In this document: in pieces, positions 2,190 to 49,368 of the stretch
Numbering within the stretch: position 1 is the stretch's first letter
How the letters are laid out: each line of letters opens with the position of its first letter
Source of the DNA: SAR86 cluster bacterium
GTDB lineage: Bacteria > Pseudomonadota > Gammaproteobacteria > Magnimaribacterales > AG-339-G14
DNA: 64,000 bases
Reading direction: 5' to 3'
NCBI GenBank assembly: GCA_023703675.1
Contig: CP097974.1
Coordinates: 85,288 to 149,287 of the forward strand
Notes under the pieces: generated by a model
Seen by the model: only the letters and a program-made list of their open reading frames with translations
Database searches by the model: none
Told to the model about the DNA's origin: nothing
Position numbers and translations under genes: made by a program

Positions 2190-2201
2190 TATAATACCCT
2201 T
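2190..2201 (+). promoter_or_regulatory. -10 element placing coaD start at +1
   Basis: TATAAT at 2190-2195 ends 6 bases before the GTG start of coaD, and there is no Shine-Dalgarno sequence. Transcription would start at or next to the start codon, giving a leaderless mRNA. No clear -35 is seen. Confidence 0.5.
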
Positions 2202-2681
2202 GTGAGTCAAAAAGCTATTTATCCTGGAACTTTTGATCCTATCACGAAAGGACATGTCGACTTAATCGAGCGCGCTTGTGAACTTTTTGATTCAGTTGTC
2301 ATAGCTATTGCTGCTAGTGAAGCCAAAAGTCCATTGTTTTCTCTGGATGAAAGAAAAGAAATAGCCAATAAGATCTTCTCAGATAACCCTAAAGTTACAG
2401 TTATTGGGTTTTCCGGTCTTTTGGTTGATCTCGCAAAAGACAATAACGCTAAAATATTGATTCGTGGATTGAGAGTGGTTGCTGATTTTGAGTATGAATT
2501 TCAATTGGCTAATATGAATCGTGCAATGATGCCTGAATTAGAAAGCGTATTTTTAACTCCAAAAGAAAAGTATTCTTATATCTCTTCAACCTTAGTTAAA
2601 GAGATTTGCAAAATGGGTGGCGATGTTTCCGAATTTGTTCATCCAGTATCACTTGAAGCCCTTAATTCTAAATATTCTTAA
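2202..2681 (+). CDS. coaD: Phosphopantetheine adenylyltransferase
   Basis: Transfers AMP from ATP to 4'-phosphopantetheine, the next-to-last step of coenzyme A synthesis in the cytoplasm. The nucleotidyltransferase signature [12 protein letters not shown] is at residues 7-18, and the conserved [11 protein letters not shown] stretch is near residues 124-134. At 159 aa it has the family's normal size. The start is GTG, chosen because [11 protein letters not shown] matches the family N-terminus. It ends 3 bases from the convergent mutM stop; coaD and mutM are also neighbours in enterobacteria. A second CoA gene, coaW, lies at 43683-44489. Confidence 0.96.
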
Positions 2682-2684
2682 AAA

Positions 2685-3500
2685 TCATTTTTGACAACTT
2701 GGACAATAAACAGTTTGTCTATTTGCTTGTCTTATAATTTTTAATTGAGTTCCACAGGTTAGGCATGGTTTGTTGCCCCGATCGTAAACTCTTAATTTCT
2801 TTTTAAAGTAACCAGGAGCTTCGTCGGCATTCGTATAATCTTTTAGAGTAGTCCCTCCAGCTTCTATTGCTTCTTGAAGAGTTTGGCGAATTGCTGAAAC
2901 CAAATCCTCGCAATTTAATTTGGTTAGTCTTCTAGATTGTTTTCTTGGCCTTATGCCGGCAAGAAATAAAGCTTCATTGGCATAAATATTTCCAACTCCA
3001 GTGACTACGTTTGCGTCCATAATTAGGTTTTTGATCGGACGCGTCCTCTTTCTAGTGCACTGAAATAGATACTCACTATTGAATTCATTACCAAGGGGTT
3101 CAGGACCTAGGTTTTTAAGCAAGTTATGTTCTTCAGGTTTTTCTTTTATTTTTACAAGAGCCCCAAATTTTCTTATATCTGTATATCTAAGTGTCCAGCC
3201 ATCAGTGAAAGATAAGTCCCAATGCTCATGTTTTTTTGGCGTTACCTGACCATCAAAGACTCTTAATTTTCCAGACATCCCAAGATGAATTAGAAGATGA
3301 CCTTCTGAAAGATTGAAAATAATATATTTTCCTCTTCGCCAAGCAGAGATAATGATTTTGTTTTTTAAGTAGCGACTAAGATCCCTATCTATAGGCCATC
3401 TAAGTTTCTGTGTTCTTGATTTAAAAGATTCAATCTTTTTATTTATTATTCTTTTTGAAATGCCGCGCAGAGTAGTTTCAACTTCAGGAAGCTCGGGCAT
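2685..3500 (-). CDS. mutM: Formamidopyrimidine-DNA glycosylase
   Basis: Base-excision repair enzyme that removes 8-oxoguanine and ring-opened purines and cuts the abasic site. The N-terminus PELPEVE supplies the catalytic Pro2 and Glu3. The C-terminus carries the four-cysteine zinc finger (CLTCG then CPSC in the last 30 residues). At 271 aa it is full length. One base separates its start from the upstream tolC-like stop, so both are probably read together from the tolC side. Its role fits the oxidative-damage genes elsewhere in the window (katG, peroxiredoxin, msrA). Confidence 0.97.
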   Translation of the reverse strand: MPELPEVETTLRGISKRIINKKIESFKSRTQKLRWPIDRDLSRYLKNKIIISAWRRGKYIIFNLSEGHLLIHLGMSGKLRVFDGQVTPKKHEHWDLSFTDGWTLRYTDIRKFGALVKIKEKPEEHNLLKNLGPEPLGNEFNSEYLFQCTRKRTRPIKNLIMDANVVTGVGNIYANEALFLAGIRPRKQSRRLTKLNCEDLVSAIRQTLQEAIEAGGTTLKDYTNADEAPGYFKKKLRVYDRGNKPCLTCGTQLKIIRQANRQTVYCPSCQK

Positions 3501-3501
3501 T

Positions 3502-4845
3502 TTATTTAGTCATAAAATTACTTATGTCGTAAATATCCATTGGCGTTAACGCACCTGCAGATAATTTAAGACCTAATTCAGCGATAATAAAATCATATTT
3601 TGAAGAATTGAAGTCTCTTTGCGCAGAGAAAAAATTTCTTTCGGCATTTAAAAGATCAACAATATTTCTCGTATCAGATTCATACCCAAACCTAGTTGCT
3701 TTGAGTGCTAATTCGGAAGATTTTAGTGCTTGTTCTCTAGCCTTCACGTTTGCCAAATTTGTTAAAACCGAGGAGTACATAGATTTTATTTGTTGCTTAG
3801 TTTTTCTCTCCATCAAAATTTCTTCCTGCTCAGCTTTTTCAAAATATGCGTAAGCCTCCCTCCTTTCAGAGCTTATCAAGCCTCCCGCCATCAAAGGCCA
3901 TGAAAACTGAAGGCTAAATTTTCTGTCCTCAATATAATTTTTTTCAAAACTAAAATTTCCACCTTCGAAAGATGGCTGTCTACTATTATTTCTAGTAATG
4001 TTAGCAACAAGGTCTACATCAGGAAAATGATCCGAAAGTTTACTTTGAGCATTTCGTTTAGAAGCTCTAGTTGCAAGTTTTGCTGCCTTAAGAGAGAAAT
4101 TATTCGTTAATCCTATACCAACCCATTCTTCTTGTGATTTTGGATTTGGAGAACTGATTGGAAAATCCGAATTTAGATCAGTTAAATTAGGAGCCTCTCC
4201 AATTATTGCTACCAACGCTTCTTTCGCGAATTCCAATTGACCTTCACTGGCTATTCTAGAAACTTTAGATAAATCATAAAAAGCTTGCGCTTCTTGAAAG
4301 TCAGTAACAGACGAAACGCCTTCTTCAAATAATCTTTTTGAAATGTCTCTTTGACGCTTTATTGCATTCTCTTCGGCCACTGCTACTTCAAGATTCTTAT
4401 TTGCTTTTAACAAGTTGAAGTAGGCTTGAGCCACCCTTGTAATAGTTTCTTGCTGAGCAAAAGCGAATTTTGCTTTTGCAACTTCACTCATTGCTTTGCC
4501 TTGACTAAATTGAAACCATCTATCTACACGAAAAATTGGCTGAATTAAATCAGCAGAATAACCATAGGTATTATTTCCAGTGCCATCAAAAAACGTAGAT
4601 TGCGGACCACGTAGCACTTCAGACTCATTCCAACTTGTAATTCCTCTAGTAGTGATGCTTGGCAATAGACCTGCAATTCCTTTAGCTTTAGCTTCTTTTT
4701 CAGCTTTAAAGGTAGCTTCGGCTATCTTAAGCTCTGGATCCTTTTTTAACGCTATTTCATAAACTTCAGCTAGGTTTAGAGATTCAGCTTTAACAAACAA
4801 TGAAAAAAAGATTAAAAAAAACGAAATTACAGCTCTTTTGTGCAT
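3502..4845 (-). CDS. tolC: TolC-family outer-membrane efflux channel
   Basis: Trimeric outer-membrane channel protein for export through tripartite efflux or type I secretion systems. The protein starts with a signal peptide (Met-His-Lys-Arg, a hydrophobic run, cleavage near VKA-ES) and then has the TolC repeats: LAEVYEIALKKDPEL at the start of repeat 1 and NLLKANKNLEVA-type helices. At about 447 aa it has the normal size. The frame opens 6 codons earlier (4863), but the ATG at 4845 gives a cleaner signal peptide and a TATAAT lies inside the longer version. The inner-membrane and adaptor partners are not in the window, so the substrate is unknown. Confidence 0.9.
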   Translation of the reverse strand: MHKRAVISFFLIFFSLFVKAESLNLAEVYEIALKKDPELKIAEATFKAEKEAKAKGIAGLLPSITTRGITSWNESEVLRGPQSTFFDGTGNNTYGYSADLIQPIFRVDRWFQFSQGKAMSEVAKAKFAFAQQETITRVAQAYFNLLKANKNLEVAVAEENAIKRQRDISKRLFEEGVSSVTDFQEAQAFYDLSKVSRIASEGQLEFAKEALVAIIGEAPNLTDLNSDFPISSPNPKSQEEWVGIGLTNNFSLKAAKLATRASKRNAQSKLSDHFPDVDLVANITRNNSRQPSFEGGNFSFEKNYIEDRKFSLQFSWPLMAGGLISSERREAYAYFEKAEQEEILMERKTKQQIKSMYSSVLTNLANVKAREQALKSSELALKATRFGYESDTRNIVDLLNAERNFFSAQRDFNSSKYDFIIAELGLKLSAGALTPMDIYDISNFMTK

Positions 4846-4882
4846 TTCTAAATTATAACTCAATTAAAGTTGACACTGTAAA
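4846..4882 (-). promoter_or_regulatory. Predicted tolC promoter, leaderless
   Basis: Read on the minus strand, TTTACA (4877-4882), a 19-base spacer and TATAAT (4852-4857) end exactly 6 bases before the ATG at 4845. This supports the shorter start and a leaderless transcript. Confidence 0.45.
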
Positions 4883-4939
4883 CATTATAAAATTGATTAT
4901 TTTCATATAAGAAAAAAAATTTTTTTTAATAAAACAATT

Positions 4940-6739
<1,800 letters not shown>

Positions 6740-6747
6740 GAGAAAAA

Positions 6748-7224
6748 ATGATTAAAGTGGGAGAGCAATTACCTTCAGCTAAGCTTTTTAAACTGGGGGA
6801 AAAAGGAGTAGATACCATTGAAAGTACCGAATATTTGGCTGACAAAAAAGTAGCTATAGTTTCAGTGCCGAGTGCATTTTCGTCAACTTGTTCAATTCAA
6901 CTTCCAGGATACATCGAAAAATCTGATGAAATTCTTTCCAAGGGTATTGATGAAATTGTTTGTTTAGCAGTAAACAATGCTTTTGTAATGAAAGCGTGGG
7001 AAAAGCACTTGGAAGCTGCTGATAAAGTAACTTTTCTTTCTGATGGAAATGGGGACTTCTCCAAGGCCATGGGCCTTTTGGCAGATGCTTCAATGATAGG
7101 TTTTGGAGAGATTTCAGCGAGATATGCTGCCGTTGCAAACGATAATGTTTTGGAATCAGTTTTCGTAGAAACGGGAACCGCCCTTGAAGTAAGTACAGCA
7201 GAAAATTTATTAAATAACCTTTAA
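6748..7224 (+). CDS. Peroxiredoxin, Prx5-like
   Basis: Thiol peroxidase of the AhpC/TSA superfamily, Prx5 group, reducing hydrogen peroxide or alkyl peroxides. The peroxidatic cysteine is C48 in VPSAFSSTCSIQLPGY, matching the family pattern with the conserved Pro, Thr and Cys. The family's ITLLSDxxxxF-like segment appears as VTFLSDGNGDF. The protein is 158 aa, full length. A clear ribosome-binding site (AGGAG) precedes the ATG, 8 bases after the thiC stop, so it is likely co-transcribed with thiC and parE/parC. A 154-codon antisense frame covers the same region and is rejected. Confidence 0.9.
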   Translation: MIKVGEQLPSAKLFKLGEKGVDTIESTEYLADKKVAIVSVPSAFSSTCSIQLPGYIEKSDEILSKGIDEIVCLAVNNAFVMKAWEKHLEAADKVTFLSDGNGDFSKAMGLLADASMIGFGEISARYAAVANDNVLESVFVETGTALEVSTAENLLNNL

Positions 7225-7226
7225 TT

Positions 7227-9122
7227 TTGGCCAACTCAAAATATACCGCTGAGTCAATTGAGGTCTTATCGGGTCTTGAGCCCGTTAGAAAAAGACCTGG
7301 TATGTATACCGACACCACCAGTCCTAATCACCTTGTCATGGAAGTTGTAGATAACAGCGTTGATGAAGCAATAGCTGGTCATGCAAAAGAGATATCAGTT
7401 TGTCTAAATAAAGATAATTCCATTACGGTAGAAGACGATGGAAGAGGTATGCCAGTTGACATGCATCCTGAAGAAAAAGTACCAGGCGTTGAACTAATCT
7501 TTTCAAGACTACATGCTGGAGCTAAATTTTCTAATAAAGAATACACTTTTTCGGGAGGCCTCCATGGAGTTGGAGTCTCAGTTGTAAACGCTTTATCTAC
7601 TCACTTAAAAGCAGAAATAAAAAGAGATGGTTCAAAATTTGCAATTGAATTTGCAGATAGTTTAAAGAAAAAAGACTTAAAAAAAATTGATGCAGTGGGA
7701 CAACGCAATACTGGTACAAAGATCTTTTTCAAGCCCGATCCTGTTTTTTTTGATACTGAAAAAATTTCTTCTAAACAACTTTCCAATGCTTTGAGAGCGA
7801 AAGCAGTTTTATGTTCAGGTCTTACAATAAAATACAAAGATGAAATTTCTAAAACCAAAGAAGAATGGTGTTACGTAGATGGTCTAGGAGACTATTTAAT
7901 AAATGAATTAGGAGACGGTTTATTTGTTCCAGAAAAACCCATTATTGGCGAACATCAAGACGAAGAATCAGGCTTATCTTGGGCATTAATGTGGGAGAGA
8001 GGCGATAAAGAAAAAATTTCAGAAAGCTATGTGAACCTAATTCCAACTTCGCAAGGAGGAACTCATGTCTCTGGAATGAAAAGTGGAATGACAGAAGCTT
8101 TAAAAGAATTTTGTGACTATAGAAAATTAATTCCTAGAGGAGTAAAAATCACATCAGACGATGTCTGGAAAAATTGTAACTTTGTATTGTCTGCCAAGCT
8201 CAAAGATCCTCAATTTAGTGGCCAAACCAAAGAGAAATTGTCTTCGAAAGAATTTCAAAACATTGCTTCTTCGATTTCAAAAGATAGTTTAGCCATTTGG
8301 TTGAATCAACACACTGAAGCCGCAGAGGAAATAGCCTTTATTTCAATTGAAAATGCTCAGGCACGAGTTAAAGCTAATCAAAAAGTCGAAAGAAAAAAGA
8401 TCACCAAAGGTATTACATTGCCAGGAAAATTGTCTGATTGTGTTTCTGGAGAAATATCTGAAACAGAACTATTTTTAGTGGAGGGAGAGTCGGCGGGAGG
8501 CTCAGCTAAACAGGCAAGAAATAGACAGTTTCAAGCTGTTATGTCTCTGAAGGGAAAAATATTAAACACTTGGGAAGTGGACACCGATGCCGTAACTCAA
8601 TCTCAAGAAGTTAAAGATATAGCCATGGCCTTAGGTTTAGATCCAGGATGTAAAACTTTAGATAATTTGAGATATGGAAAGATCTGCATTCTTGCCGACG
8701 CGGATACTGACGGAGCTCACATTGCCACTTTGATATGTGCGTTATTTTTAAAACATTTTAGACCTTTGGTAGAAGCAGGCCATGTCTTCATTGCTCAACC
8801 TCCATTATTTAGAATAGATCAAGGCAAAGAAGTTTTCTACGCTTTAGACGAAGATGAAAAAGACAAAATCGTTAAAGATCTGCAATCAAAAAATAAACAA
8901 AAAAAAATAGAAATACAAAGATTCAAAGGTTTGGGAGAAATGAATCCAAGTCAGCTTCGAGAGACGACTATGGAAATTGAAGGGAGAAGACTTCTGAAAC
9001 TTACTTTAGAAAAAGGAAATACTTCTACCTCTTTAATGGATATGTTGTTGTCTAAAAAAAGAGCTGGAGATAGAAAACATTGGCTAGAAACCAAAGGAGA
9101 CTTAGCTAACTTGAATGAGTAA
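7227..9122 (+). CDS. parE: DNA topoisomerase IV subunit B
   Basis: ATPase subunit of topoisomerase IV, which unlinks daughter chromosomes. GHKL ATPase motifs are present ([34 protein letters not shown]), followed by the TOPRIM domain (EGESAGGSA, and DADTDGAHI for Mg2+). At 631 aa it matches ParE rather than the longer GyrB. The start appears to be TTG, 2 bases after the peroxiredoxin stop; the following residues ([22 protein letters not shown]) match ParE N-termini, so the start is close. It overlaps parC by 8 bases, indicating one transcript. Confidence 0.96.
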
Positions 9123-11346
9123 AGAAGAAAGCCTACCGATTGGAGGTTACGCAGAAAAAGCATATTTGGAATACTCCATGTATGTAATTCTAGACCGAGC
9201 TTTACCTTTTGTAGGAGATGGATTAAAACCAGTTCAACGAAGGATTATATATGCCATGTCTGAATTGGGTCTTAAATCTTCGGCTAAATTCAAAAAAAGC
9301 GCTAGGACTGTAGGTGATGTTATCGGAAAATTTCATCCTCATGGCGACAGTGCAGCTTACGAAGCAATGGTTTTGATGGCTCAAAATTTTTCTACTAGAT
9401 ACCCATTAATAGAAGGACAAGGTAATTTTGGATCTTTGGATGACCCAAAAAGTTTTGCAGCAATGAGATACACAGAATGCAGACTATCAGCTTATTCACA
9501 GAATCTTTTAACTGAAATATCACAAGGTACAGTTGACTGGATGCCTAATTTTGATGGAACTTTGATTGAACCAAAATTTTTGCCTGCGAGATTACCGAAT
9601 GTACTTTTGAATGGAGCATCTGGCATTGCAGTTGGGATGGCCACGGATATACCGCCTCATAATCTCACCGATGTTGTAAAAGCTACAATTGCACTTTTAG
9701 AAAGTCCAAAAATGTCAATTAAAGAATTGATGAGATATATCCCTAGTCCGGATTTTCCCACCCAGGCAAAAATAATTTCAACTCCTGAAGACATTGAGGA
9801 AATTTATACGACTGGAAGGGGTTCTATAAAACTAAGAGCTACTTATGATATCGAAAATGGAGAAATCGTCATTAGCTCTTTGCCTTATCAAGTCTCATCT
9901 TCAAAAATCCTTGAACAAGTTGCGTCTCAAATTGAATCTAAAAAAATTAGTATGATTGAAGATCTAAGAGACGAAAGTGATGAAAATAATCCAGTGAGAT
10001 TAATTGTTGTTCCAAGATCTAACAGAATAGATAAAGATGCATTAATGAGTCATCTATTTGCTACTACAGAATTACAAAAAAATGTTCGGGTAAATTTTAA
10101 TGCCATCGGTTTAAACGGTAAGCCTAGAGTATTTGATTTAAAAGATATGCTCAAAGAATGGATAAAGTTTAGAACCGAGACAGTAAAAAGAAGACTGCAA
10201 CATCGTTTGGATTGGGTAAACGATCGATTGCACATTCTAGAAGGGTTGCTTAAAGCTTATTTAAATCTAGATGAAGTAATAAAAATTATAAGAACCCATG
10301 ACGATCCCAAAAAATCTTTAATGAAAAAATTTAAGTTATCCGAATTACAAGCAAACGCAATTTTGGACATACGTTTAAGGCAATTAGCTAAATTAGAAGA
10401 GGAGGCCATTCTGGAAGAAAAAAAATTGCTTGCTTCTGAAGCCAAAGATATTGAAAAAATTCTCAATTCATCTAGTAGATTAAAAACACTAATTAAAAAA
10501 GAGATGAATGAGGATCTTGAGGAATATGGAGATGAAAGAAACAGCAATATTGTCGAAGTTGAAGAAGCAAAAGCATTTGATGAAAAAGACCTTATCTCTA
10601 ATGATCCAATGACTGTAGTACTCTCAAAGAGAGGTTGGATTAGAGCTGCTAAAGGACACGATATTGATCCTCAAAGCCTGCAGTATAGAGAGGGAGACGA
10701 ATATCTTTCCTCTTCAACGGCTAGAAATAGTCAAAACGCAGTAATCATTGATAGTTTTGGAAAGGCTTTTACTTTACCTATTCATAAGTTACCTTCTGCT
10801 AGAGGTCAAGGCGATCCGGTGTCGGGCAGTATAAATTCTCAATCGGGCTCAACCTTTGCGGGCGTTGTTGCAGGGACCGATGACGACTATTGTTTGTTGG
10901 CGTCGACCAGTGGATATGGTTTTATTGCAAAAATAGCTGAATTACAAACAAAAAATAAGTCAGGCAAAACTGCACTCAACACCAAAGGAGCTATTCCATT
11001 AGGACCTGAAAAGGTGATTAAAATAAATGACTCTTACTTGGCTGCAATTACAGAGGAAGGAAAAATGCTATTAATTGAATCTTCGGATTTGCCGATTCTC
11101 TCAAAAGGGAAAGGAAATAAAATTATCAACATTGATAAAAAACAATTCGAAGCAAAAGAAAACAAATTAATTTTTCTGAAGTCACTAGCTAAAGGAAGTA
11201 GTCTTAAAATTTGCAGTGGAAAACAAAATTACACAATAAAATCCAAAGATTTAGAAAATTTTGTCGGCACCAGGGGTAGAAAGGGAAATTTTCTCCCCAA
11301 AGGGTACAGAAGAGTAGATGCAGTAGAAGTAATTGTTGAAGAATAA
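9115..11346 (+). CDS. parC: DNA topoisomerase IV subunit A
   Basis: DNA-cleaving subunit of topoisomerase IV. The breakage-reunion domain begins with [20 protein letters not shown], and the catalytic tyrosine is in [11 protein letters not shown] coiled-coil gate region with long Glu/Lys helices follows, then a short C-terminal beta-pinwheel (for example GYGFIAK and TRGRKG). At 743 aa it fits ParC, shorter than GyrA. Overlap with parE supports co-expression. The stop lies 1 base from the convergent M48 peptidase stop. Confidence 0.96.
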
Positions 11347-11347
11347 A

Positions 11348-12394
11348 CTAATCAGCAACTGTGTTCGGAATTAATTGCTGATTAGACTTTTTCTTTTCTT
11401 CAATTTCTTTAATAGCAGCATTAATTTCTAAAAATCTTTCAGGAGTAGCAGGATGAGTGGAAGTGTGGCTTTGATTGATACTCCCTGGATGTTCCACTGC
11501 CATATCTCGCCAAAAGTTTGCGACATTTTCCGTTGAGTATCCAGCTCTTTCCAAATAATAAATTCCAACATAGTCCGCTTCTGCTTCAAATTCTTGAGAA
11601 TACATTCTTGCTCCAGTCTGACCAAAAACGCCTTGGGTATTTACTCCATAGTAAGCGGCAGCTAAATCAACAATCGTTCCAAGAAGAGAATTAGTTCTTA
11701 ATTTAGAGATGTGGCCCATCATGTTATGACCCAGTTCATGTGCTATAACCAATCCAAGGTCTTCATCTCTTTGAGCAAACCTTATCATTCCTGTCGTTAT
11801 GCCAATTTGGCTTCCGTTAGCGAAAGCGTTAACAGAGTCGTTTTGAACCAACAAAATAGGGTAGTTACAAATCAAATCAGGATCAAAGGATACTGATTTT
11901 GATACTCCATCTCTCAAAAACTCTACCTTTAGGGTCTCTGATTTATTTCTAAATTTTTCTAAGCCTTTGTGAAATTTCTCTCTATCTGATGAAACCTCTA
12001 AGTTGTTAATTTTTAAGATTTCATCGTTTTTTCTTAGTCCACTTTTAAAAGCAGCTGAACTTGGAATAACGTATGTGACTTTTATTCCTTTTTCATCAAT
12101 TCCATATACTTCTTTTTCAATTTCAGAATATTTATCTGTAGCAACGTAAGCATTGAACATTACCCCGATGGAGTTCACAGTATTATCGCAAAGGTCACTC
12201 GAGTTCTTAAGAATTGGATAGCCTACTCGTTGCAAACGTTCGTATCTTTCCTTAATTTTTTGAAGCGCTAATGTTTGTTGAAGTTTTGTTTCAGCATCTA
12301 AAGCATCATTGTCAATGTTTAGTCTCTGAGTAGCAGGACCAGCACACGAAAAGATTAACGTAGATAAAATTAAAATTTTTAAAAATTTAACCAT
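11348..12394 (-). CDS. Lipoprotein M48 metallopeptidase with PDZ domain
   Basis: Probable envelope zinc protease. From the ATG at 12394 the protein opens with a lipoprotein signal (MVKFLKILILSTLIFSCAG, lipobox Cys17). A PDZ-like segment follows (VIPSSAAFKSGLRKNDEILKI), then the M48 core: HELGH zinc motif in VIAHELGHNMMGH and the third ligand in EFEAEADYVG. The frame opens earlier (12499), but the extra 35 residues would bury the lipobox and overlap argD. PDZ plus M48 resembles periplasmic quality-control proteases. The target is unknown. It is convergent with parC. Confidence 0.88.
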   Translation of the reverse strand: MVKFLKILILSTLIFSCAGPATQRLNIDNDALDAETKLQQTLALQKIKERYERLQRVGYPILKNSSDLCDNTVNSIGVMFNAYVATDKYSEIEKEVYGIDEKGIKVTYVIPSSAAFKSGLRKNDEILKINNLEVSSDREKFHKGLEKFRNKSETLKVEFLRDGVSKSVSFDPDLICNYPILLVQNDSVNAFANGSQIGITTGMIRFAQRDEDLGLVIAHELGHNMMGHISKLRTNSLLGTIVDLAAAYYGVNTQGVFGQTGARMYSQEFEAEADYVGIYYLERAGYSTENVANFWRDMAVEHPGSINQSHTSTHPATPERFLEINAAIKEIEEKKKSNQQLIPNTVAD

Positions 12395-12452
12395 CGTTAC
12401 TCTTATGATAAGTAAAAATTTTGTCAAGACAAGAATGCAAAGTAGGTTTTTC

Positions 12453-13652: not shown

Positions 13653-13683
13653 CTAGAAATTTAAATAAAAAATTTTGGTTTAA

Positions 13684-13697
13684 TATAACAATTAATT
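13684..13697 (+). promoter_or_regulatory. -10 element close to DUF2244 gene start
   Basis: TATAAC (13684-13689) ends 8 bases before the ATG at 13698. There is no Shine-Dalgarno sequence. The predicted transcript has no more than one or two leader bases. Confidence 0.4.
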
Positions 13698-15345: not shown

Positions 15346-15375
15346 AATTTAGGAAGTTAATTATACACATTAGGG

Positions 15376-15388
15376 TAAAATCATCATT
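15376..15388 (+). promoter_or_regulatory. -10 element placing thioesterase start near +1
   Basis: TAAAAT (15376-15381) ends 7 bases before the ATG at 15389, with no Shine-Dalgarno sequence. This predicts a leaderless transcript. The gap to the divergent acyl-CoA dehydrogenase gene is only 43 bases. Confidence 0.42.
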
Positions 15389-15811: not shown

Positions 15812-17047
15812 TTTTTTTTGTACAGGAATATTTTTTAAACGGGCTATGTCAGGTATCCCTTGGTGATATTTAATTGTACTTTCTCCCTGTATCAAAGGCC
15901 TGAGATACCTTCTCCCAACATTGGTTATTTTAAAACCGTCTTTTGAAATGTATGCAGCTGGCATTTTCTTTTCAACATTAGCAACGTTTTTCAAAGATAC
16001 TTCAGATAATGTCCATTTGTAAGGTTTTTCGCTTACTCTTCTGATGGTCGGCATCAATCCGGTTTTTCCTGCCAAAGCTAATTGGACAGCATATTTGCCT
16101 ACAGCATAAGCTTGGTCAAGATCGGTTTTTGAAGCAATATGTCTCGCCGAGCGTTGCAAATAATCTGCAACTGCCCAATGATTTTTCAGACCAAGTTTAG
16201 TAACCATTTCAGCTAAAAAAGGCGCTACTCCCCCTAGTTGTTTATGTCCAAATGCGTCAACAGAACCGGCATCCGCTAAAAATTTTCCTTTTTTGTCTCT
16301 TACTCCTTCCGAAGCGACTATGACACAGTACCCATATCTCTTTACAGTATTTTTAACAGCCGCTTTAAATTTATTTTTCTCAAAAGCTACTTCTGGAAGA
16401 AGAATGATATGCGGTGGATCTTCTATTTCGTTGCTAGCTAAACAAGACGAGGCAGCAATCCACCCAGCGTGACGCCCCATAACTTCCAAAATAAACACTT
16501 TTGTGGAGGTTTCTGACATGCTTTTGACATCCAATCCAGCTTCAAGAGTAGAAGTAGCAACGTACTTCGCTACGGAACCAAAGCCTGGAGAGCAATCAGT
16601 AAAGGGTAAGTCATTATCTACTGTTTTTGGAATACCAATGCATTGAAGAGGAAAATTAAGTTTTTTTGCCATTTCAGATATCTTGAAAGTTGTGTCTTGG
16701 CTGTCACCACCTCCGTTGTAGAAAAAAAATCCAATGTTATGTGCTTCAAATACTTCAAAAAGCCTTTCATATTCTTTTTTTTGTTTGATTGGGTCTTGCA
16801 ATTTAAAACGGCATGAACCAAAGGCTCCTCCAGGTGTTTGTTTTAATTTTGCAATGGTTGATTTTGACTCTCTTGAGGTGTCAATAAGTTCCTCATTCAA
16901 GGCTCCTAAAATTCCATTTTTACCAGCTAAAACTTTATTAATTTTATAAGATTTATTAGCGGCCTCTATAACACCACAGGCAGATGCATTAATTACCGAG
17001 GTGACACCTCCTGATTGGGCATAAAAGGCGTTTTTTTTTGCTGCCAT
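15797..17047 (-). CDS. pfp: Pyrophosphate-type 6-phosphofructokinase
   Basis: Phosphorylates fructose 6-phosphate, probably with pyrophosphate, making the step reversible. Nucleotide/PPi loop NGGGDSQDTT and the substrate motif PKTVDND are visible; ATP-type enzymes usually read PGTIDND, and the Lys after Pro is the PPi-type mark. EVMGRHAGWIAA is the conserved sugar-phosphate site. 416 aa from the ATG at 17047; a TTG one codon earlier is also possible. It is divergent from mpl with back-to-back promoters. Phosphate-donor choice is inferred from motifs, not proven. Confidence 0.88.
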   Translation of the reverse strand: MAAKKNAFYAQSGGVTSVINASACGVIEAANKSYKINKVLAGKNGILGALNEELIDTSRESKSTIAKLKQTPGGAFGSCRFKLQDPIKQKKEYERLFEVFEAHNIGFFFYNGGGDSQDTTFKISEMAKKLNFPLQCIGIPKTVDNDLPFTDCSPGFGSVAKYVATSTLEAGLDVKSMSETSTKVFILEVMGRHAGWIAASSCLASNEIEDPPHIILLPEVAFEKNKFKAAVKNTVKRYGYCVIVASEGVRDKKGKFLADAGSVDAFGHKQLGGVAPFLAEMVTKLGLKNHWAVADYLQRSARHIASKTDLDQAYAVGKYAVQLALAGKTGLMPTIRRVSEKPYKWTLSEVSLKNVANVEKKMPAAYISKDGFKITNVGRRYLRPLIQGESTIKYHQGIPDIARLKNIPVQKKLRSF

Positions 17048-17082
17048 CAATCAAATATAACTGAAAAAAGTATTTCTGTGAA
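17048..17082 (-). promoter_or_regulatory. Predicted pfp promoter, leaderless
   Basis: On the minus strand, TTCACA (17077-17082), a 17-base spacer and TATATT (17054-17059) end 6 bases before the ATG. There is no Shine-Dalgarno sequence. The element lies back to back with the mpl promoter. Confidence 0.55.
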
Positions 17083-17087
17083 AAGGA

Positions 17088-17099
17088 TATAATTTATTT
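17088..17099 (+). promoter_or_regulatory. -10 element placing mpl start at +1
   Basis: TATAAT (17088-17093) ends 6 bases before the mpl ATG. There is no Shine-Dalgarno sequence. No good -35 is seen; the region overlaps the pfp -35. Confidence 0.5.
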
Positions 17100-20230: not shown

Positions 20231-20295
20231 ATAAGTTTTTAGTCCAAAGAATGTTCTAAGCACGAATAACTTTGCTAAGAATTAATTAAGATTTA

Positions 20296-20772: not shown

Positions 20773-20784
20773 AATCTTAGTTTA
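20773..20784 (-). promoter_or_regulatory. -10 element placing rpmE2 start at +1
   Basis: On the minus strand TAAACT (20779-20784) ends 6 bases before the ATG, with no Shine-Dalgarno sequence. The arrangement is almost identical to that before cysE (TAAACT, AAG, one variable base, TT, ATG). Confidence 0.4.
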
Positions 20785-20828
20785 GAGCGCGAATGATATC
20801 AGAACTTTTTTTTTGAAGAAATATAATT

Positions 20829-21296: not shown

Positions 21297-21330
21297 CAAT
21301 TATTGATTCTAATTTGTAGGGAGGAATCTT

Positions 21331-21708: not shown

Positions 21709-21764
21709 AAAATGGATAGAATAACTCTCTAGAACAACTCAATTTAAAAGATAAGGAGAAAATT

Positions 21765-22943: not shown

Positions 22944-22947
22944 AGTA

Positions 22948-23337: not shown

Positions 23338-23345
23338 ATAAAATT

Positions 23346-24624: not shown

Positions 24625-24731
24625 CAGTTAAAGTCCTAAAAAAATTTTGTTTTTTTGTTATCTTCTCATTGCTAAAAGGGCTAGGAAAGAGATAGAGTAC
24701 GTAGATTAAATTATTTTTAAAGGAGAGGAAA

Positions 24732-25709: not shown

Positions 25710-25711
25710 CT

Positions 25712-29952: not shown

Positions 29953-29960
29953 AAATTTTT

Positions 29961-31009: not shown

Positions 31010-31056
31010 TGATAAAATTTGAAGGTGAGAAATTTATCAAAACCTAGAGGAACTTG

Positions 31057-33447: not shown

Positions 33448-33502
33448 ATTATATTAAAGTCATTATAATGCTGCGTTCAGTCAATCCAAGTTATTAAAAA
33501 AA

Positions 33503-37271: not shown

Positions 37272-37336
37272 TTTTTATTATCAATAATTTTTATCTGTTA
37301 AAGTTATAAATACTATTTTATGACATCTTAACTTTC

Positions 37337-38560: not shown

Positions 38561-38585
38561 TGCTTTTATAAAGCCGATACCTATG

Positions 38586-38591
38586 TATAAT
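38586..38591 (+). promoter_or_regulatory. Candidate rRNA promoter -10
   Basis: TATAAT 26 bases after the tyrS stop. It is the best -10 upstream of the 16S processing stem, with no good -35 (region 38563-38568 is weak). The predicted start falls at the boxB-like hairpin. Confidence 0.35.
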
Positions 38592-38599
38592 CGCAAATT

Positions 38600-38637
38600 C
38601 CTGTGCTGTAATTTTTAGCACAGGGTGTTTTTTAACA
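38600..38637 (+). promoter_or_regulatory. rRNA antitermination site: boxB-like hairpin plus boxA
   Basis: CCTGTGCT (38600-38607) pairs perfectly with AGCACAGG (38617-38624). TGTTTTTTAACA (38626-38637) follows directly and matches the E. coli rrn boxA (TGCTCTTTAACA) at 10 of 12 bases. Hairpin then boxA is the order in rrn leaders, so this is read as the Nus antitermination site rather than a tyrS terminator, although the T6 run would also fit a terminator. Confidence 0.5.
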
Positions 38638-38640
38638 GAT

Positions 38641-38666
38641 TAGTTCATGTAATTCGTGCGGACACT
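38641..38666 (+). other. 16S processing stem, 5' strand
   Basis: Complementary over about 26 bases to 40316-40341 with few mismatches. The two strands would pair around 16S to form the RNase III processing stem. Confidence 0.75.
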
Positions 38667-38756
38667 TGCCTTGTAAATAGAGGTATGTGTCATTTTTTGA
38701 ATATTTATATTCAAAACCCTTTTTTGATATTTTTTGAGAAAAATATCCGTTTAATT

Positions 38757-40290
<1,534 letters not shown>

Positions 40291-40315
40291 CTATAAATAC
40301 ACTATCTTTGTTGTG

Positions 40316-40341
40316 AGTGTTCGCTCGAATTACATGAATTA
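40316..40341 (+). other. 16S processing stem, 3' strand
   Basis: Partner of 38641-38666. Lies 25 bases after 16S in the spacer. Confidence 0.75.
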
Positions 40342-40555
40342 ATTTCAGACCTTAAATGGGTCTTGAGAGTTTTTTAAAAGTATTGTGATCCAAATGTTAA
40401 TAATTATTGTTATCAATTATTAATAATTATTTAAAAGTTTTATAACTTTTAAACATCAAGTTCAAGAATCGAATTCAATTCGATTCTGAATGCTAATGGC
40501 AAATAAAATTAGGCGCTTATTATTCAAAGAAACTTAACTTTCAAACATTTTTTTG

Positions 40556-40567
40556 TTTAGAAACATT
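40556..40567 (+). other. 23S processing stem, 5' strand
   Basis: TTTAGAAACATT is the exact reverse complement of AATGTTTCTAAA found twice after 23S (43471-43482 and 43493-43504). Confidence 0.7.
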
Positions 40568-43468
<2,901 letters not shown>

Positions 43469-43470
<2 letters not shown>

Positions 43471-43512
43471 AATGTTTCTAAATTTGAAATCTAATGTTTC
43501 TAAATTTGAAAT
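43469..43512 (+). repeat. Exact 22-base tandem duplication after 23S
   Basis: CTAATGTTTCTAAATTTGAA plus AT occurs at 43469-43490 and again at 43491-43512 with no mismatch. Each copy contains the 12 bases that pair with the 23S 5' flank, so the 3' half of the processing stem is doubled. Confidence 0.9.
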
Positions 43513-43555
43513 AAAGACCTAATTTTTTTGGATCGCAATAATGAACAAGAATTTT

Positions 43556-43671
43556 GTCCGATGACAATAGCAAGTGTGACCCACCTGATTCCATATCGAA
43601 CTCAGAAGTGAAACCACTTAGCGCCGATGGTAGTGTAGTTTTTTCTATGCGAGAGTAGGACATCGTCGGAC
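43556..43671 (+). rRNA. rrf: 5S ribosomal RNA
   Basis: About 116 bases with the conserved core CACCTGATTCCATATCGAAC and TCAGAAGTGAAAC, and ends GTCCGATG/CATCGTCGGAC that close helix I. Just outside, AACAAGAA (43544-43551) is complementary to TTCTTGTT (43672-43679), extending the stem as a likely processing site. The coaW stop codon begins 11 bases after 5S on the other strand. Confidence 0.95.
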
Positions 43672-43682
43672 TTCTTGTTAAA

Positions 43683-44489
43683 TCAGATAGTCCCCACACA
43701 AATTGCGTACTCACCGTTTTCGTGGAAAAGAGGCTCTATATTAATTACTCTAAATCCATCAATTAGCATTTCTCTGAGAAGATCGTATTTATAAGATCTT
43801 CCAATTACGTATACTTTTTTTATGTCGTTTATAGAAGCTATTGTAATAGCTGTTTTTAAAATTGTTTGTCCTACCATGCTTATTATTCCGGCAGCTAAAT
43901 CTTCTTTGTTGCAATCTGAATAATCTATTTTTCCAAAATTCACTGCGCTTGCAGATTCTGGTAGATTTCCAATAGGACCTGAAATTACATCTTTCAATAA
44001 AAGGTCTACTTTTTCTCTCTTCCCTTTAGAGGAGAGAGAATTTATTATTTTTGGATCGTCTTCACCAATAATCAATTTACTTAAACCCCTTATGGTTCCT
44101 CCACCTAATCCAGTTCCTCCGGCGTGGAGAATGTCACCTTCATTAAAGATTGCGCATGCTGAACCAGACCCAAGACTCATGACCATAAATCTCTCCTCTT
44201 TAGGATGAAAAGTATTCATTGCTCCTTTAACAATTGCTTCGACTTCGTTGTAATGTTTTATTTCAATTCCTTTATAAGACGAACCTAAAGCTTCGTGCTT
44301 ACCTCCGGTAACCCCAATTATTTGTAAATTAGAAACATCATCTGTACAGGATGAGATTAATTCTTTCAAAAAATCTACAGAAGTATTTTTTGAGAAAAAA
44401 GTTTTAAATTTAAAATTAGCTCCATCAACTATAACTACATCGGTATTAGTTATACCAAAGTCGATTCCTAACTTAATAGATTTGGACAT
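43683..44489 (-). CDS. coaW: Type II pantothenate kinase-like
   Basis: Phosphorylates pantothenate, the first step of CoA synthesis. ASKHA-fold motifs: LGIDFGITNTDVVIVD (phosphate 1), GVTGGKHEAL, MSLGSGSACAI (phosphate 2), AGGTGLGGGTIRGLSKL. These match type II PanK (eukaryotic/Staphylococcus type) rather than CoaA or CoaX, the usual bacterial forms. 268 aa. Lies tail to tail with the rRNA operon. A related BadF-type ATPase is possible but less likely. Confidence 0.85.
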   Translation of the reverse strand: MSKSIKLGIDFGITNTDVVIVDGANFKFKTFFSKNTSVDFLKELISSCTDDVSNLQIIGVTGGKHEALGSSYKGIEIKHYNEVEAIVKGAMNTFHPKEERFMVMSLGSGSACAIFNEGDILHAGGTGLGGGTIRGLSKLIIGEDDPKIINSLSSKGKREKVDLLLKDVISGPIGNLPESASAVNFGKIDYSDCNKEDLAAGIISMVGQTILKTAITIASINDIKKVYVIGRSYKYDLLREMLIDGFRVINIEPLFHENGEYAICVGTI

Positions 44490-44527
44490 GCGCTGTCTGT
44501 CATGAACAGCTTAATTTTTATCAAAAA

Positions 44528-45679
44528 CTAAGCGTTAGCTTGCGCTTCTTGAATTGTAGCAAGCATTTCATCAGAATCTTTTTTAACTTGATCTGAGGAT
44601 TCTAGAGGCTTGGAAATTTCAGCCCAGTCAATCTCATAATCACTTGCAGCATTTTCATACTCAAGAATACCAAGTTCTTCGTATTTAGGTCTTACAGAGT
44701 CAGTAAGCAAACCAATTCTTTTTAGATTTGGCATAACTCTTGAAAATAAAAAGCTTCTGAATTGGTCTAAACCACCATTATTTAATTGAAATATTCTGGC
44801 TTCTTCATGAGACATTTTTAGAAACTTAGTCATCGCACCAGTGTTTATTAATCTATCTTTAGAAACTACACAGGCTTCAAAAGCGAACTCGGCTCTTTCT
44901 TCAATTTCATCAGGAGATAGAGTTTTAACAAAATCCTCTAAATAATTAATTCCAAAAGTTACGTGACGCGCCTCGTCTCTGATGATGTAATGAAGAAGAG
45001 TTTGCAAAAGAGGGTCTCGGGCAGAGAGCTTCATGTTAGTAAAGGCCGCAAGAGCAAGTCCCTCAATAATAATTTGCATTCCAATGAATTTTAAATCCCA
45101 TCTTTCATCAGTAAGTATTTTGTCTAATAAAGCTTTTAAATTAGGGTTTATAGGATAGTGAAAACCAATTTTTTCTTGTAAATAACGATTGAAAACTTCA
45201 ACGTGTCTAGCTTCGTCAAAAGTTTGAGAAGCAGCGTACATTTTTGCGTTAAAAGTTGGAGCACAACTTGCTATTTGTGAAGCTACTAGTAGCGCACCTT
45301 GTTCACCGTGAAGAAATTGGCATAGAACCTCAGCAGTTTCATGCCTGTCAAATTCAATTTTTTCTTCTTCAGACAATGCTTTGTAAGCATCTAGTTGTTC
45401 GTGAGGAAATTCAACTCCATCTATTCCTACAAGAGGTTCGTCGGATGGATGGGTATAACTCCAATCCAGATCTATTGAGCCATTCCAATTTAGTTCTTTT
45501 CCAAGTTCGTAAAGTTTTTTTATTCTATTTTCTGCTACTGTGTAGTCCCAATTATAAGAACCGGTAAGAGGCGTGTTAAAGATTTCTACAACATCTTCAA
45601 CATCTTTTTCTTTAAGATCTAGTTCGTCGTCAAAATAAACTAAATCTTCGGGGGGACCCTGTCTTTTTGTAATTTTCAT
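44528..45679 (-). CDS. Ferritin-like diiron protein
   Basis: Four-helix diiron protein of unknown reaction, 383 aa. The full ligand set of the fold is visible: Glu126 (HGEQGA), Glu156 and His159 (DEARHVEVF), Glu206 (IIIEGLAL), Glu236 and His239 (DEARHVTFG). It resembles ribonucleotide-reductase-like and ferritin-like oxidases rather than a true R2 subunit; no R1 partner lies nearby. It is on the same strand just downstream of cobT-like and cobS-like genes (59-base gap) and has its own leaderless-type promoter. Likely an O2-using oxidase or oxygenase. Confidence 0.82.
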   Translation of the reverse strand: MKITKRQGPPEDLVYFDDELDLKEKDVEDVVEIFNTPLTGSYNWDYTVAENRIKKLYELGKELNWNGSIDLDWSYTHPSDEPLVGIDGVEFPHEQLDAYKALSEEEKIEFDRHETAEVLCQFLHGEQGALLVASQIASCAPTFNAKMYAASQTFDEARHVEVFNRYLQEKIGFHYPINPNLKALLDKILTDERWDLKFIGMQIIIEGLALAAFTNMKLSARDPLLQTLLHYIIRDEARHVTFGINYLEDFVKTLSPDEIEERAEFAFEACVVSKDRLINTGAMTKFLKMSHEEARIFQLNNGGLDQFRSFLFSRVMPNLKRIGLLTDSVRPKYEELGILEYENAASDYEIDWAEISKPLESSDQVKKDSDEMLATIQEAQANA

Positions 45680-45714
45680 AATGGTAAATTATTCCTTTGA
45701 GCTCTTAAAGTCAA
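45680..45714 (-). promoter_or_regulatory. Predicted promoter of the diiron gene, leaderless
   Basis: On the minus strand TTGACT (45709-45714), a 17-base spacer and TAATTT (45686-45691) end 6 bases before the ATG. No Shine-Dalgarno sequence at working distance. This is the best -35/-10 pair among the leaderless candidates. Confidence 0.6.
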
Positions 45715-45738
45715 CATTTTTAATGTGTAATATTTTCC

Positions 45739-47487
45739 TTATCTTTCGGCAAATAATTCGGTTAGTTGCTCCAACATAACACCACCTAATTCTTCTGCTC
45801 TATGAATTGTTACGGCCTTGGAATAATACCTTGTTACATCATGACCAATGCCAATTGCAATGAGATCAATATCTGTTTTATTTTCAATATCTTTTATAAC
45901 TGATTTCAAATGATTGTCTAAATAGCTTGTTGAATTAGTAGATAAAGTGCTGTCATCGACAGGCGCTCCATCGGAAATCACCATAAGAATTTGTCTTTGC
46001 TCTGGTCTTTTAAATAACCTACTACAAGCCCAAAGAAGCGCTTCTCCGTCAACGTTTTCTTTGAGCAATCCCTCCCGCAGCATTAATCCTAGGTTTTTTT
46101 TTGCTCTTCTCCAGGCGAGATCTGCAGGTTTAAAAATAATATGACTGAGATCGTTAAGCCTCCCTGGATTGCTTGGTTTTCCGCATTCAACCCATAACTT
46201 ACGGCTGTCTCCGCCTTTCCAATGTTTTGTTGTGAAACCTAAGATTTCTGTTTTTATGTTACACCTGTCTAATGTCGCCCCAATGATATCTGCTGAAATT
46301 GCGGCTGTTGTCATGGATCTACCTCTCATTGAGCCAGAACTATCTACAAGAATAGTCACAACAGTGTCTTTAAATTTTGTGTCTTTTTCTTGTTTAAAGC
46401 TTAAAGGCGTTAAAGGGTCGGTTATTATTTTGGTTAATTTTGATGTATCCAATATCCCTTCATCTTTATCGTACTCCCAAGATCTATTTTGTTGAGCTAA
46501 AAGTAATCTCTGAAGTCTATTAGCTAATTTAGCAATTACACTTTTGCTTGGATCTATTAATTGATCTAATCTTATCCTAAGTCTCTTGAGCTCTTCTTGT
46601 GCGCATAGATCTTCTGCATCGACAATTTCATCAAAGTCTCTACAAAAAACTTTGTATTCTTGATTATTTTCGACATTAAATAATTCCTCTAATTTGGATC
46701 TATTTTCGACCCAATTTTCATCTGAGTCTTCGACCTCTTCTTCTTCAAATTCCATTTCTTCTGAAGATTCAGAATCAGTTGGAGACTCTTCCGAAGAACC
46801 TTCTTCTTGAGGCTCTTCATCTTGATTTTCCTCATCTGATTCTTCGTCTTCATTATCGTCGTCATCCGATGAACTTTCTTCTTTTTGTTCTTCCTCTTCA
46901 AATTTAATGTTTAGTTCCTTAAGAAGATTTTGAATGCTTTCAAGATATAACTCCTTGTCCTTAATATTTTTTTTTAGTTCAGGAATAAATTTTTTCTCTA
47001 CTTTTTTTAAATCCTCACTGAATGGTTCCAAAATTTTTTCTTCAAGAGCTGTAAATTTATTTCCTAATATTTTCCCTTTGATCCAAATATCTAGAATTTT
47101 GTTGATACTCTCAATCGCTGACTCTGGTTTAAACGCTTCAAGTTCTTCAACGAAATTATTTCTAAGATTGCTCTTGAGACCTTTATATTGAAGCGAACCT
47201 AAGACTTCGATCCGTACGCTGTTTTGCACCGAGAGGCTTTGATCTAATTCATTAATACCTGTTATTTCACTTCTTGATTCGTTAGAAAATTTCTCTTTCA
47301 AAGCTATCTTGTCAGCTTTCGCTCTGCTTAAGCTTAATCCACGTAAAGAGCTTTCTGGAAGAGGAATTGAATTAGAATGAATTGAATCACTTCCAAAATT
47401 AAGTTCTAAGTCAGTTTTAGAGGAAATTGCTCTTGAAGAGGAAGAGAGCGCTTCCTTTAATATTTGTTCTTTTGATCTATCACTCAA
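45739..47487 (-). CDS. cobT: CobT-like VWA protein
   Basis: Similar to cobaltochelatase subunit CobT. N-terminal helical region, a strongly acidic Asp/Glu/Ser linker (about residues 195-260), then a C-terminal von Willebrand A domain with the MIDAS motif DSSGS at residues 382-386 and [10 protein letters not shown]. 582 aa, close to classical CobT. The TTG start overlaps the cobS stop by 4 bases. The CobN subunit that binds the corrin ring is not in the window. Could serve as a metal-insertion or remodelling partner. Confidence 0.85.
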
Positions 47488-48476
47488 TCTTGATCTATCA
47501 GATTGCTTATTGAATCAGATGTTTCTTGATCAAAACATCTTTGAAAATATTCAGCAATGATTGGTTTTTCAGTTTCATCGCACTTATTTAGGAAGCTTAA
47601 TTCAAAAGAAGAAACTAAATCAGAAAAAATTTGATAATTTTCCGCCCAACTTATTACTGTTCTGGGCGACATCAAATTGGAGATGTCACCATTTTTGAAG
47701 CCTTCTCGAGTAAGGTTTGCTAGCTCGATCATATTTTTTACAATTTCCGAGCCTTTTTTATTGTCTAAACCCTTTACTTTTGACAAGACTACTTTCGTTT
47801 CCAATTCGACGCTCAAATAATTTAAACATGAGACTATTTGCCATCTGTCCATTTGACCTTGGTTGATTTGTTGGGTGCCGTGGTAGAGACCAGTGCTGTC
47901 CCCAAGGCCGACAGTGTTTGCGGTAGCAAAAAGTCTGAAGAAAGGATTAGGGGTTAGGACTCTGTTTTGATCTAAGAGAGTTAACCTTCCGTCAACTTCG
48001 AGCACACGCTGAATTACGAACATTACATCAGGTCTACCAGCATCGTACTCGTCAAAAACCAAGGCGGTTGGATTCTGAATGGCCCAAGGAAGGATACCCT
48101 CTTGAAACTTTGTGACTTGTTTGTCTTTTTCTAAAGTAATAGCGTCTTTACCTAAGAGATCCAATCTGCTGATGTGTGAATCTAAATTGATTCTGACACA
48201 AGGCCAATTTAACCTAGCCGCAACTTGCTCAATATGAGTAGATTTTCCAGAGCCATGAAGACCTTGGATCATGACTCTTCGGTTGTCAGAAAAGCCAGCT
48301 AAAATTGCGAGGGTTGTGCTTTTATCGAAACAATAAGTATCGTCAACATCTGGAACGTATTCGTTAGCTTCCGCAAAGGCAGGTACTTCAAAATCAGCGT
48401 CTATACCGAAAGTGTTCCCAACGTTTAGTGAAATATCGGGTTTATTTTTAGAGAAGTTGCTATATGTTGTTGCCAT
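47484..48476 (-). CDS. cobS: CobS-like AAA+ ATPase
   Basis: AAA+ ATPase of the MoxR/CobS group. Walker [10 protein letters not shown] is at residues 72-80, Walker [11 protein letters not shown] at 138-147, and [19 protein letters not shown] is the sensor-1 region of CobS. 330 aa, normal. In classical systems CobS and CobT form a ring that powers cobalt insertion by CobN. Divergent from cysE across 103 bases. A TATACT sits directly against its ATG and a GATAAT 17 bases upstream, so the promoter is uncertain. Confidence 0.88.
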
Positions 48477-48567
48477 AGTATAGAAGGTTACTTATTATCC
48501 TTTTTTCATTTAAAACAGCAAGATAATATACTTACGATCTAGTAAACTATTCGATTTCAAATCTATC

Positions 48568-48579
48568 TAAACTAAGCTT
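48568..48579 (+). promoter_or_regulatory. -10 element placing cysE start at +1
   Basis: TAAACT (48568-48573) ends 6 bases before the ATG, and there is no Shine-Dalgarno sequence. Nearly identical to the rpmE2 arrangement. Confidence 0.42.
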
Positions 48580-49368
48580 ATGACGGAAAAAGAAATCTGG
48601 TTAGAAATCCAGGAAGAGGCCAAATCATTGTCTAAGGATCAATCATTGTCTGATTCTTACTTAGACGAATATGTTGCTGATTTCGACAAGTTGTCTGACA
48701 GCATAGGTTTCAAAATTGCCAATGATTTAGGTCAAGATGTTTCGTCAAAAGCTTTTTCGAATAAATTTCTTTTCGCTGAATTAAAAAAAGTTTACGAAGA
48801 TTCTAATATTTTGGATGGATTGGTTTTGGATCTACTTGCAGTAAAACAAAGAGATCCGGCATCTACTGGATATTTATCAACTCTGCTGTTTTCCAAAGGC
48901 TTTCTAGCATTACAAACGCACAGAGCAAGTCATTACTTTTTAAAAAGTGGAGAAACTTTGTTGGCTAGTTTTCTTCACAGTCAAGCATCGAAAATATATA
49001 GCGTAGATATTCACCCAGCTGCAAGGATTGGAGTCGGGGTGATGCTAGATCACGCGACCGGAATTGTGATTGGTGAAACCAGTGTAATCGAAAATGATGT
49101 ATCAATCTTTCAAGGAGTAACCCTTGGTGGAACTGGAAAAATTACCGGAGATAGGCACCCTAAGGTTAGGAAAGGAGTATTGATTAGCGCGGGAGCTAAA
49201 ATTTTGGGAAATGTTGAAATCGGTCAAGGTGCCAAAGTAGCTGCTGGAAGCGTCGTTCTTGATGACGTCGAAATGAATACAACAGTAGCAGGTGTTCCCG
49301 CAATTGCTGTTGGCAAGCCAAGTTCTGATTCTCCTGCTAAAACAGTTGACCATTCAATCAAAGAATAA
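48580..49368 (+). CDS. cysE: Serine O-acetyltransferase
   Basis: Makes O-acetylserine, the carbon acceptor for cysteine synthesis. N-terminal helical CysE domain, then a left-handed beta-helix of hexapeptide repeats. The active region DIHPAARIGVGVMLDHATGI carries the catalytic Asp and His; DRHPKVRKGVLISAGAKILG follows. 262 aa, normal. Predicted leaderless promoter. One base separates it from tesB, so they may be transcribed together. Confidence 0.95.
   Translation: MTEKEIWLEIQEEAKSLSKDQSLSDSYLDEYVADFDKLSDSIGFKIANDLGQDVSSKAFSNKFLFAELKKVYEDSNILDGLVLDLLAVKQRDPASTGYLSTLLFSKGFLALQTHRASHYFLKSGETLLASFLHSQASKIYSVDIHPAARIGVGVMLDHATGIVIGETSVIENDVSIFQGVTLGGTGKITGDRHPKVRKGVLISAGAKILGNVEIGQGAKVAAGSVVLDDVEMNTTVAGVPAIAVGKPSSDSPAKTVDHSIKE

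Follow-up and report, generated by a model that had tools for sequence, protein, structure and literature searches.

Our data suggest that leaderless transcripts are used in SAR86, a marine gammaproteobacterial lineage sampled here through a 64-kb stretch of the genome of a SAR86 cluster bacterium (bases 85288-149287 of contig CP097974.1, assembly GCA_023703675.1; hereafter the window). We propose that at a minority of the SAR86 genes that lead a transcript, the -10 box ends 6 to 7 bases before the start codon and the mRNA would have no leader, with a Shine-Dalgarno (SD)-led mode coexisting in the same genome; we put the probability of this reading at roughly 80%. It is from the hexamers themselves, a peak in their distance from the start codon, their concentration at genes that need a promoter of their own, and conservation at a few genes that we infer where transcription starts and how the mRNA is translated. 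Leaderless-type promoters are estimated to serve 10 to 15% of divergent leading genes, since the excess amounts to ~52/550 genes by strict counting and to ~80/550 genes by a motif fit.

The source genome is a single contig of 1,194,046 bases with a completeness of 97.46%, and the GC content of the window is 37%. Genes were called with a coding-score model blind to upstream sequence, so that start codons were picked without upstream information, and the called genes were classed by neighbor; the main test set comprised divergently transcribed genes with a gap of at least 25. A hexamer was counted when it matched TATAAT with at most one mismatch, with A2 and T6 fixed. A genome-wide count of hexamers by distance, proposed in a first-pass annotation of the window, revealed a peak at 6 to 7 bases. 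In a held-out sample of the same genome (40 stretches outside the window, 800 kb, 178 divergent genes), there were 17 matches at distance 6 and 9 at distance 7 over a background of 3.87 per position (Poisson P ~7e-7 for distance 6). We then pooled this genome, in its larger sample, with the SAR86 genomes G007, G040, G041, and G042, which cover one more genus and three more families. Among the 550 divergent genes of the pool, 79 had a match at 6 to 7 (50 and 29), where 26.6 were expected (13.3 per position), and distances 0 to 5 were depleted (42 matches versus 80 expected). The peak was also seen genome by genome in a first sample (464 kb), with 14/112 genes at 6 to 7 in the source genome (4.8 in shuffles), 18/94 in G007 (3.4), 11/106 in G040 (3.8), and 10/68 in G042 (3.2). 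The pooled peak survived two other start rules and was lost when starts were deliberately shifted to the next internal start; 66 of the 79 genes have no in-frame alternative start upstream.

If the hexamers act as promoters, they should be found where a gene needs one, and the gene classes differed in this respect: overlapping same-strand genes had no peak (9/526 versus 79/550 divergent genes; Fisher P 1e-15), and same-strand genes with a gap of at least 40 had 24/429 matches at 6 to 7 versus 13.3 expected. An expectation-maximization motif fit to the 550 divergent genes, seeded with TATAAT and with flat positions, returned the -10 consensus (T.87, A.93, T/A, A.71, A.74, T.87). Its mass corresponded to 64 genes at distance 6 and 30 at distance 7 (93.7 together), with 6.5 in all at 0 to 5; the best two-position bin among 30 dinucleotide shuffles held 56.2 genes. 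At distances 5 to 8 the fit placed 106 genes, versus a mean of 26.6 and a maximum of 63.1 in the 30 shuffles, and the model found no motif at overlapping same-strand genes. When the position model was trained on four genomes and tested on the fifth, it beat the flat model and all rotated positions in 5/5 cases, with narrow margins in G007 (15.7 versus 15.1) and G041 (3.5 versus 2.1). G was also enriched at -14, the extended -10 base, being present at 29/79 sites at distances 6 to 7 versus 90/518 at 8 to 44 (P 2e-4) and 96/942 matching places without a hexamer; the full extended -10 (TGn) occurs at only 9/79 sites. A2 and T6 of the -10 box and G at -14 are contacts of sigma-70. The match to the -10 box, the G at -14, and the scarcity of hexamers closer than 6 bases together fit promoters with +1 at the start codon.

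SD-like tetramers are found at 4/78 leaderless-like genes versus 111/550 overall, a difference that is partly trivial; we set SD absence aside as independent evidence because the box takes up the SD position. GTG starts are somewhat more common among the leaderless-like genes (6/78 versus 11/472, P 0.02), and TTG starts are not (2/78 versus 27/472). Outside SAR86, we drew on 76 loci, of which the 39 under 50% GC (15 low, 24 mid) entered the distance counts; 5/196 of their divergent genes had a match at 6 to 7, a contrast with SAR86 (Fisher P 1e-6) that is indicative only, as GC differs between the sets.

Further features of the distance distribution were noted. Among the 198 divergent genes of the source-genome set that includes the window (window plus L009-L028 and L310-L329), -10-like hexamers rise a second time at distances 20 to 21 (11 and 9 over a background of 4.3), which could reflect leaders that are commonly close to 14 bases long. 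Elsewhere in the genome, coaE (dephospho-CoA kinase; L326:1025-1618, minus strand) has a hexamer at distance 6, like coaD, as does smpB (L325:10069-10542).

Within the window, the first-pass annotation had listed ten genes with such hexamers. Rechecking the letters by coordinate, we recovered all ten at the positions and distances given there, and an eleventh site absent from that list. The sites and associated features are as follows.

2190..2195, plus strand: coaD, -10-like TATAAT, 6 bases before GTG 2202
4852..4857, minus strand: tolC, -10-like TATAAT, 6 bases before ATG at 4845
4961..4966, plus strand: thiC, -10-like TAAAAT, 6 bases before GTG 4973
13684..13689, plus strand: DUF2244 gene, TATAAC, distance 8; doubtful
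15376..15381, plus strand: thioesterase gene, -10-like TAAAAT, 7 bases before ATG 15389
17054..17059, minus strand: pfp, -10-like TATATT, 6 bases before ATG at 17047
17088..17093, plus strand: mpl, putative -10 box TATAAT, 6 bases before ATG 17100
20779..20784, minus strand: rpmE2, TAAACT, distance 6; doubtful
20793..20798, minus strand: rpmE2, alternative -10 box TATCAT, 20 bases before ATG; would be leadered
45686..45691, minus strand: diiron gene, -10-like TAATTT, 6 bases before ATG at 45679
45709..45714, minus strand: diiron gene, -35-like TTGACT, spacer 17
48568..48573, plus strand: cysE, TAAACT, 6 bases before ATG 48580; weak
50980..50985, plus strand: eleventh site, TAAAAT, 6 bases before ATG 50992
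40283..40287, plus strand: anti-SD CCTCC at the 16S 3' end

Pfam was run on ten proteins, namely, nine of the named genes (all but mpl) and a CobS-like neighbor, and the gene names given earlier fit for nine of ten (CoaD-type cytidylyltransferase, OEP/TolC, ThiC, DUF2244, thioesterase, PFK, L31, AurF-like diiron, and SATase_N). The mpl of the window is 53 to 64% identical to its best named relatives, the SAR86 loci L029-L032. Judged by a simple tetramer rule, the statement that these genes have no SD site is borne out for eight of ten; the exceptions are mpl and the diiron gene, where AGGA lies 12 to 13 bases before the start, farther than is usual for SD. Three of the ten sites originally named (rpmE2, DUF2244, and cysE) are doubtful or weak as leaderless-type promoters, which, together with a share confined to 10 to 15% of divergent leading genes, narrows the original claim. 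That the 16S rRNA keeps CCTCC was correct. The 16S-23S-5S operon (38757-43671) has a spacer without a tRNA gene, and ARAGORN found no tRNA in the whole window.

Conservation of the sites was followed in genome searches across four SAR86 families, labeled f1 to f4; some of the rows compared come from near-identical genomes, the 31 mpl upstreams comprising 23 distinct sequences. Fragments or second pieces (thiC L249-L251), second copies (diiron L345-L349), and weak matches to other proteins (coaD L275-L279, cysE L298-L309) were removed before counting. The clearest case is mpl, with a hexamer at 6 to 7 in 30/31 f1 rows; in the exception, L120, a GTG at the aligned start has TATAAT at distance 7, and the script had picked an ATG further up. 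The hexamer is at 5 to 7 in 8/8 f2 rows and at 7 in 6/8 f3 rows, and by the rule it is found in 0/3 f4 rows, where TATAAC at distance 7 fails the fixed T6. The distance of this box is near constant while the bases between it and the start vary, and only 5 of the 76 non-SAR86 loci have a hexamer at 5 to 8 ahead of mpl. For pfp, a hexamer lies at 6 to 7 in 25/31 f1, 5/8 f2, 0/8 f3, and 0/3 f4 rows. The coaD hexamer is at 6 in 10/10 f1 rows, at 6 to 8 in 5/5 f3 rows, and in 1/3 f4 rows, but f2 has SD in 5/5 rows and a hexamer at 5 to 8 in none. The site is thus conserved in three of four families for mpl and in two for coaD and pfp. By inspection, the 52-base mpl-pfp spacer (17048-17099), which contains two divergent -10 boxes, is similar among f1 genera well past the boxes themselves; because the promoters would overlap, their use may be coupled.

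The remaining sites are more variable. The thiC hexamer is at 6 to 7 in 7/10 f1 rows, that of tolC is present in 4/10 f1 rows and, as TAAAAT at 6, in the G041 orthologue (f3), and that of the thioesterase gene (TAAAAT) is at 6 to 7 in all 5 other rows compared, all f1. Under a loose rule at 6 to 8, the diiron gene has a match in 7/9 f1, 0/3 f2, 0/2 f3 (both SD), and 1/1 f4 rows; two g2 genomes have TATAAT at 6, and TTGACT with a spacer of 16 to 17 is present in 5/15 rows, the source genome included. At the DUF2244 gene, only L030 of 5 other rows has a similar hexamer (TATAGC) at 8, and L029 has TATTAT at 6. TAAACT ahead of rpmE2 is kept at 7 in L030 and not in L029; the upstream box TATnAT is kept at 20 to 24 bases in the source genome, L029, and L030, as TATTAT in both relatives (20 and 24). 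At cysE, TAAACT or TAACCT occurs only in four same-genus rows, and the hexamer rule, which TAAACT of the source genome itself fails, gives 1/10 f1, 2/5 f2, and 1/3 f3. Divergent from cysE (48477-48579), the CobS-like gene has GATAAT in 15/15 f1 and f2 rows, ~11 to 30 bases ahead of its start codon, often with TTGCTG ~16 bases upstream, an arrangement that marks a probable conserved leadered promoter.

Several observations weigh against leaderless-type promoters. By itself, G041 shows no significant peak (9/84 at 6 to 7 versus 5.4, with a shuffle maximum of 12), and raw counts of TATAAT-N(6,7)-ATG over the whole source genome do not stand out (41 versus 31 for N(10,11), P 0.29). Compared with the nearest distances, the excess of G at -14 is not significant (10/42 at 0 to 5, P 0.16; 18/80 at 8 to 13, P 0.06). 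Same-strand genes with a gap of 0 to 14, an intermediate class, also have matches at distance 6 (22/433); of the 40 matches at 5 to 7 in this class, 22 run into the stop codon of the upstream gene and 18 are clear of it, and these matches are possibly internal promoters or have another cause. The sites at 6 to 7 have no -35 consensus (TTGAC at 0/79 and TTGA at 1/79, spacers 15 to 19), and their mean match to TTGACA at spacers 16 to 18 is no better than that of other hexamers, though exceptions exist, e.g., the diiron gene of g1 and g4. AGGA stands ahead of the mpl box in 18/31 f1 rows. Sharing between orthologue pairs, scored with the plain hexamer rule because a high motif threshold had left too few matches, is modest: 12/277 versus 4.5 expected, where mpl and pfp, each recurring in three pairs, supply 6 of the 12, and 3/67 versus 1.75 expected between the source genome and G007. 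Site-by-site conservation is therefore patchy, and the sites seem to turn over.

The lack of a -35 consensus and the AGGA ahead of mpl would suit a scenario in which the hexamers are genuine -10 boxes of minor or no function, the main promoter lying further upstream and producing a short leader mostly without SD. Additional motif mass at distances 20 to 22 and beyond and the conserved boxes farther upstream of rpmE2 and the CobS-like gene point the same way. Under such a scenario, however, neither a sharp peak at 6 to 7 with depletion below 6 nor a near-fixed mpl distance despite changing bases between box and start would be expected, and we regard it as unlikely. Considerably less probable is a translational signal, i.e., an AT-rich non-SD ribosome site as in the Bacteroides/FCB group. 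The hexamer does occupy the usual SD position, SD-like tetramers are present at only 19 to 27% of SAR86 genes, depending on class, and some of the same-strand genes with a gap of 0 to 14 carry the hexamer; yet overlapping same-strand genes, which would need such a signal equally, are without it, and the learned A2/T6 pattern with G at -14 fits sigma-70. Least probable of all, and very improbable in our view, is that chance hexamers in AT-rich DNA were picked by eye. TAnnnT is indeed common (~10.7 per position among the 198 divergent genes), and about one third of the strict matches at 6 to 7 are attributable to chance, but the held-out peak, the five-genome pool, the shuffles, and the start-rule controls are not accounted for in this way. 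Leaderless-type promoters are a better reading than chance given a genome-wide peak that is clearest at divergent genes and missing at overlapping ones, and given the mpl site in three families.

A coarser survey, comparing whole-genome counts of TATAAT-N(6,7)-ATG and N(10,11) in 140 genomes of the class, was judged too blunt. It gave 36 versus 20 (P 0.04) for SAR86 G039 and 5140 versus 4656 for 138 other genomes together. A control with the pattern read backwards was set aside, as G143 gives 66 versus 167 although N(10,11) gives 200. Outliers among the Gammaproteobacteria were G177 (80 versus 37), G151 (51 versus 23), and G175 (17 versus 2), uncorrected for 138 tests, and these are candidates for further leaderless-using lineages.

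Considering these data, we propose the following model for leaderless initiation in SAR86. Transcription usually starts ~7 bases after the -10 box; with 6 bases between box and start codon, +1 is expected on the first base of that codon (A in ATG, G in GTG). The transcript would begin with this base or with the one preceding it and would carry neither a leader nor an SD site. Translation would proceed by leaderless initiation at the 5'-terminal start codon, alongside SD-led initiation of other genes. The ribosomal parts look ordinary, with nothing unusual in the anti-SD, in bS1 (rpsA is present in the source genome), or in bS21 (present in 56/61 SAR86 genomes, including the source genome). A review describes leaderless GUG as poorly used in Escherichia coli and better used in mycobacteria (PMC9031893). 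More tentatively, leaderless initiation might be an old, order-wide trait of SAR86 that was kept through streamlining, with a -10 box with G at -14 and no -35, with flips between SD and leaderless states as at coaD, and with ribosomes able to start on a 5'-terminal GUG in addition to AUG, in contrast to the usual situation in E. coli.

SAR86 bacteria are among the most abundant in the surface ocean. If at least a tenth of their leading genes do lack a leader, then gene-start annotation, promoter reading, and the interpretation of metatranscriptomes in SAR86 need a leaderless model. Since coaD is leaderless-type in f1 and f3 but SD-led in f2, it shows an apparent switch of initiation state inside a single order, and the evolution of the mode thereby becomes testable.

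The arrangement is known but uncommon in Gammaproteobacteria, and the earlier view of its rarity there was somewhat overstated. Zheng et al. (2011, PMC3160421) reported leaderless genes in 207/953 bacterial genomes, and the StartLink+ paper (PMC9581028) cites a figure of 21.6% for the bacterial species predicted to use them. The TA-led genes of Zheng et al. resemble those proposed here in that a TA-like -10 signal lies ~10 bases upstream of the start in part of the genes, with others being SD-led, and low-GC groups have the fuller TAtAAT form; the gammaproteobacterial groups named in section 7 of that paper are mostly Xanthomonadales and Legionellales, and SAR86 is not among them there. A full-text literature search, with most subscription journals outside its coverage, found no report of leaderless genes in SAR86, which is accordingly a lineage without a prior report found, leaderless genes themselves being already known in other Gammaproteobacteria. 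AT-rich upstream bias has been discussed as a leaderless or an S1 signal (Nakagawa 2017, PMC5397173).

Mapped examples come from Salmonella, with 33 leaderless mRNAs, 16 of them exact (PMC3293720), Yersinia pseudotuberculosis, with 14 (PMC4376681), and Alteromonas macleodii, with 10 beside 1315 gene transcription start sites (TSSs) and a median leader of 63 (PMC5864184). As proposed for SAR86, these transcripts start at the start codon or no more than a few bases away and have no SD; they are measured and few, whereas those of SAR86 are predicted from sequence and would make up a larger share (10 to 15% of divergent leading genes), although the denominators differ. In Prochlorococcus MED4, 6 to 8% of primary TSSs lie within 10 nt (PMC5607370). 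This organism is a cyanobacterium whose starts were mapped experimentally, unlike those of SAR86, but like SAR86 it is oceanic and is thought to use several initiation modes.

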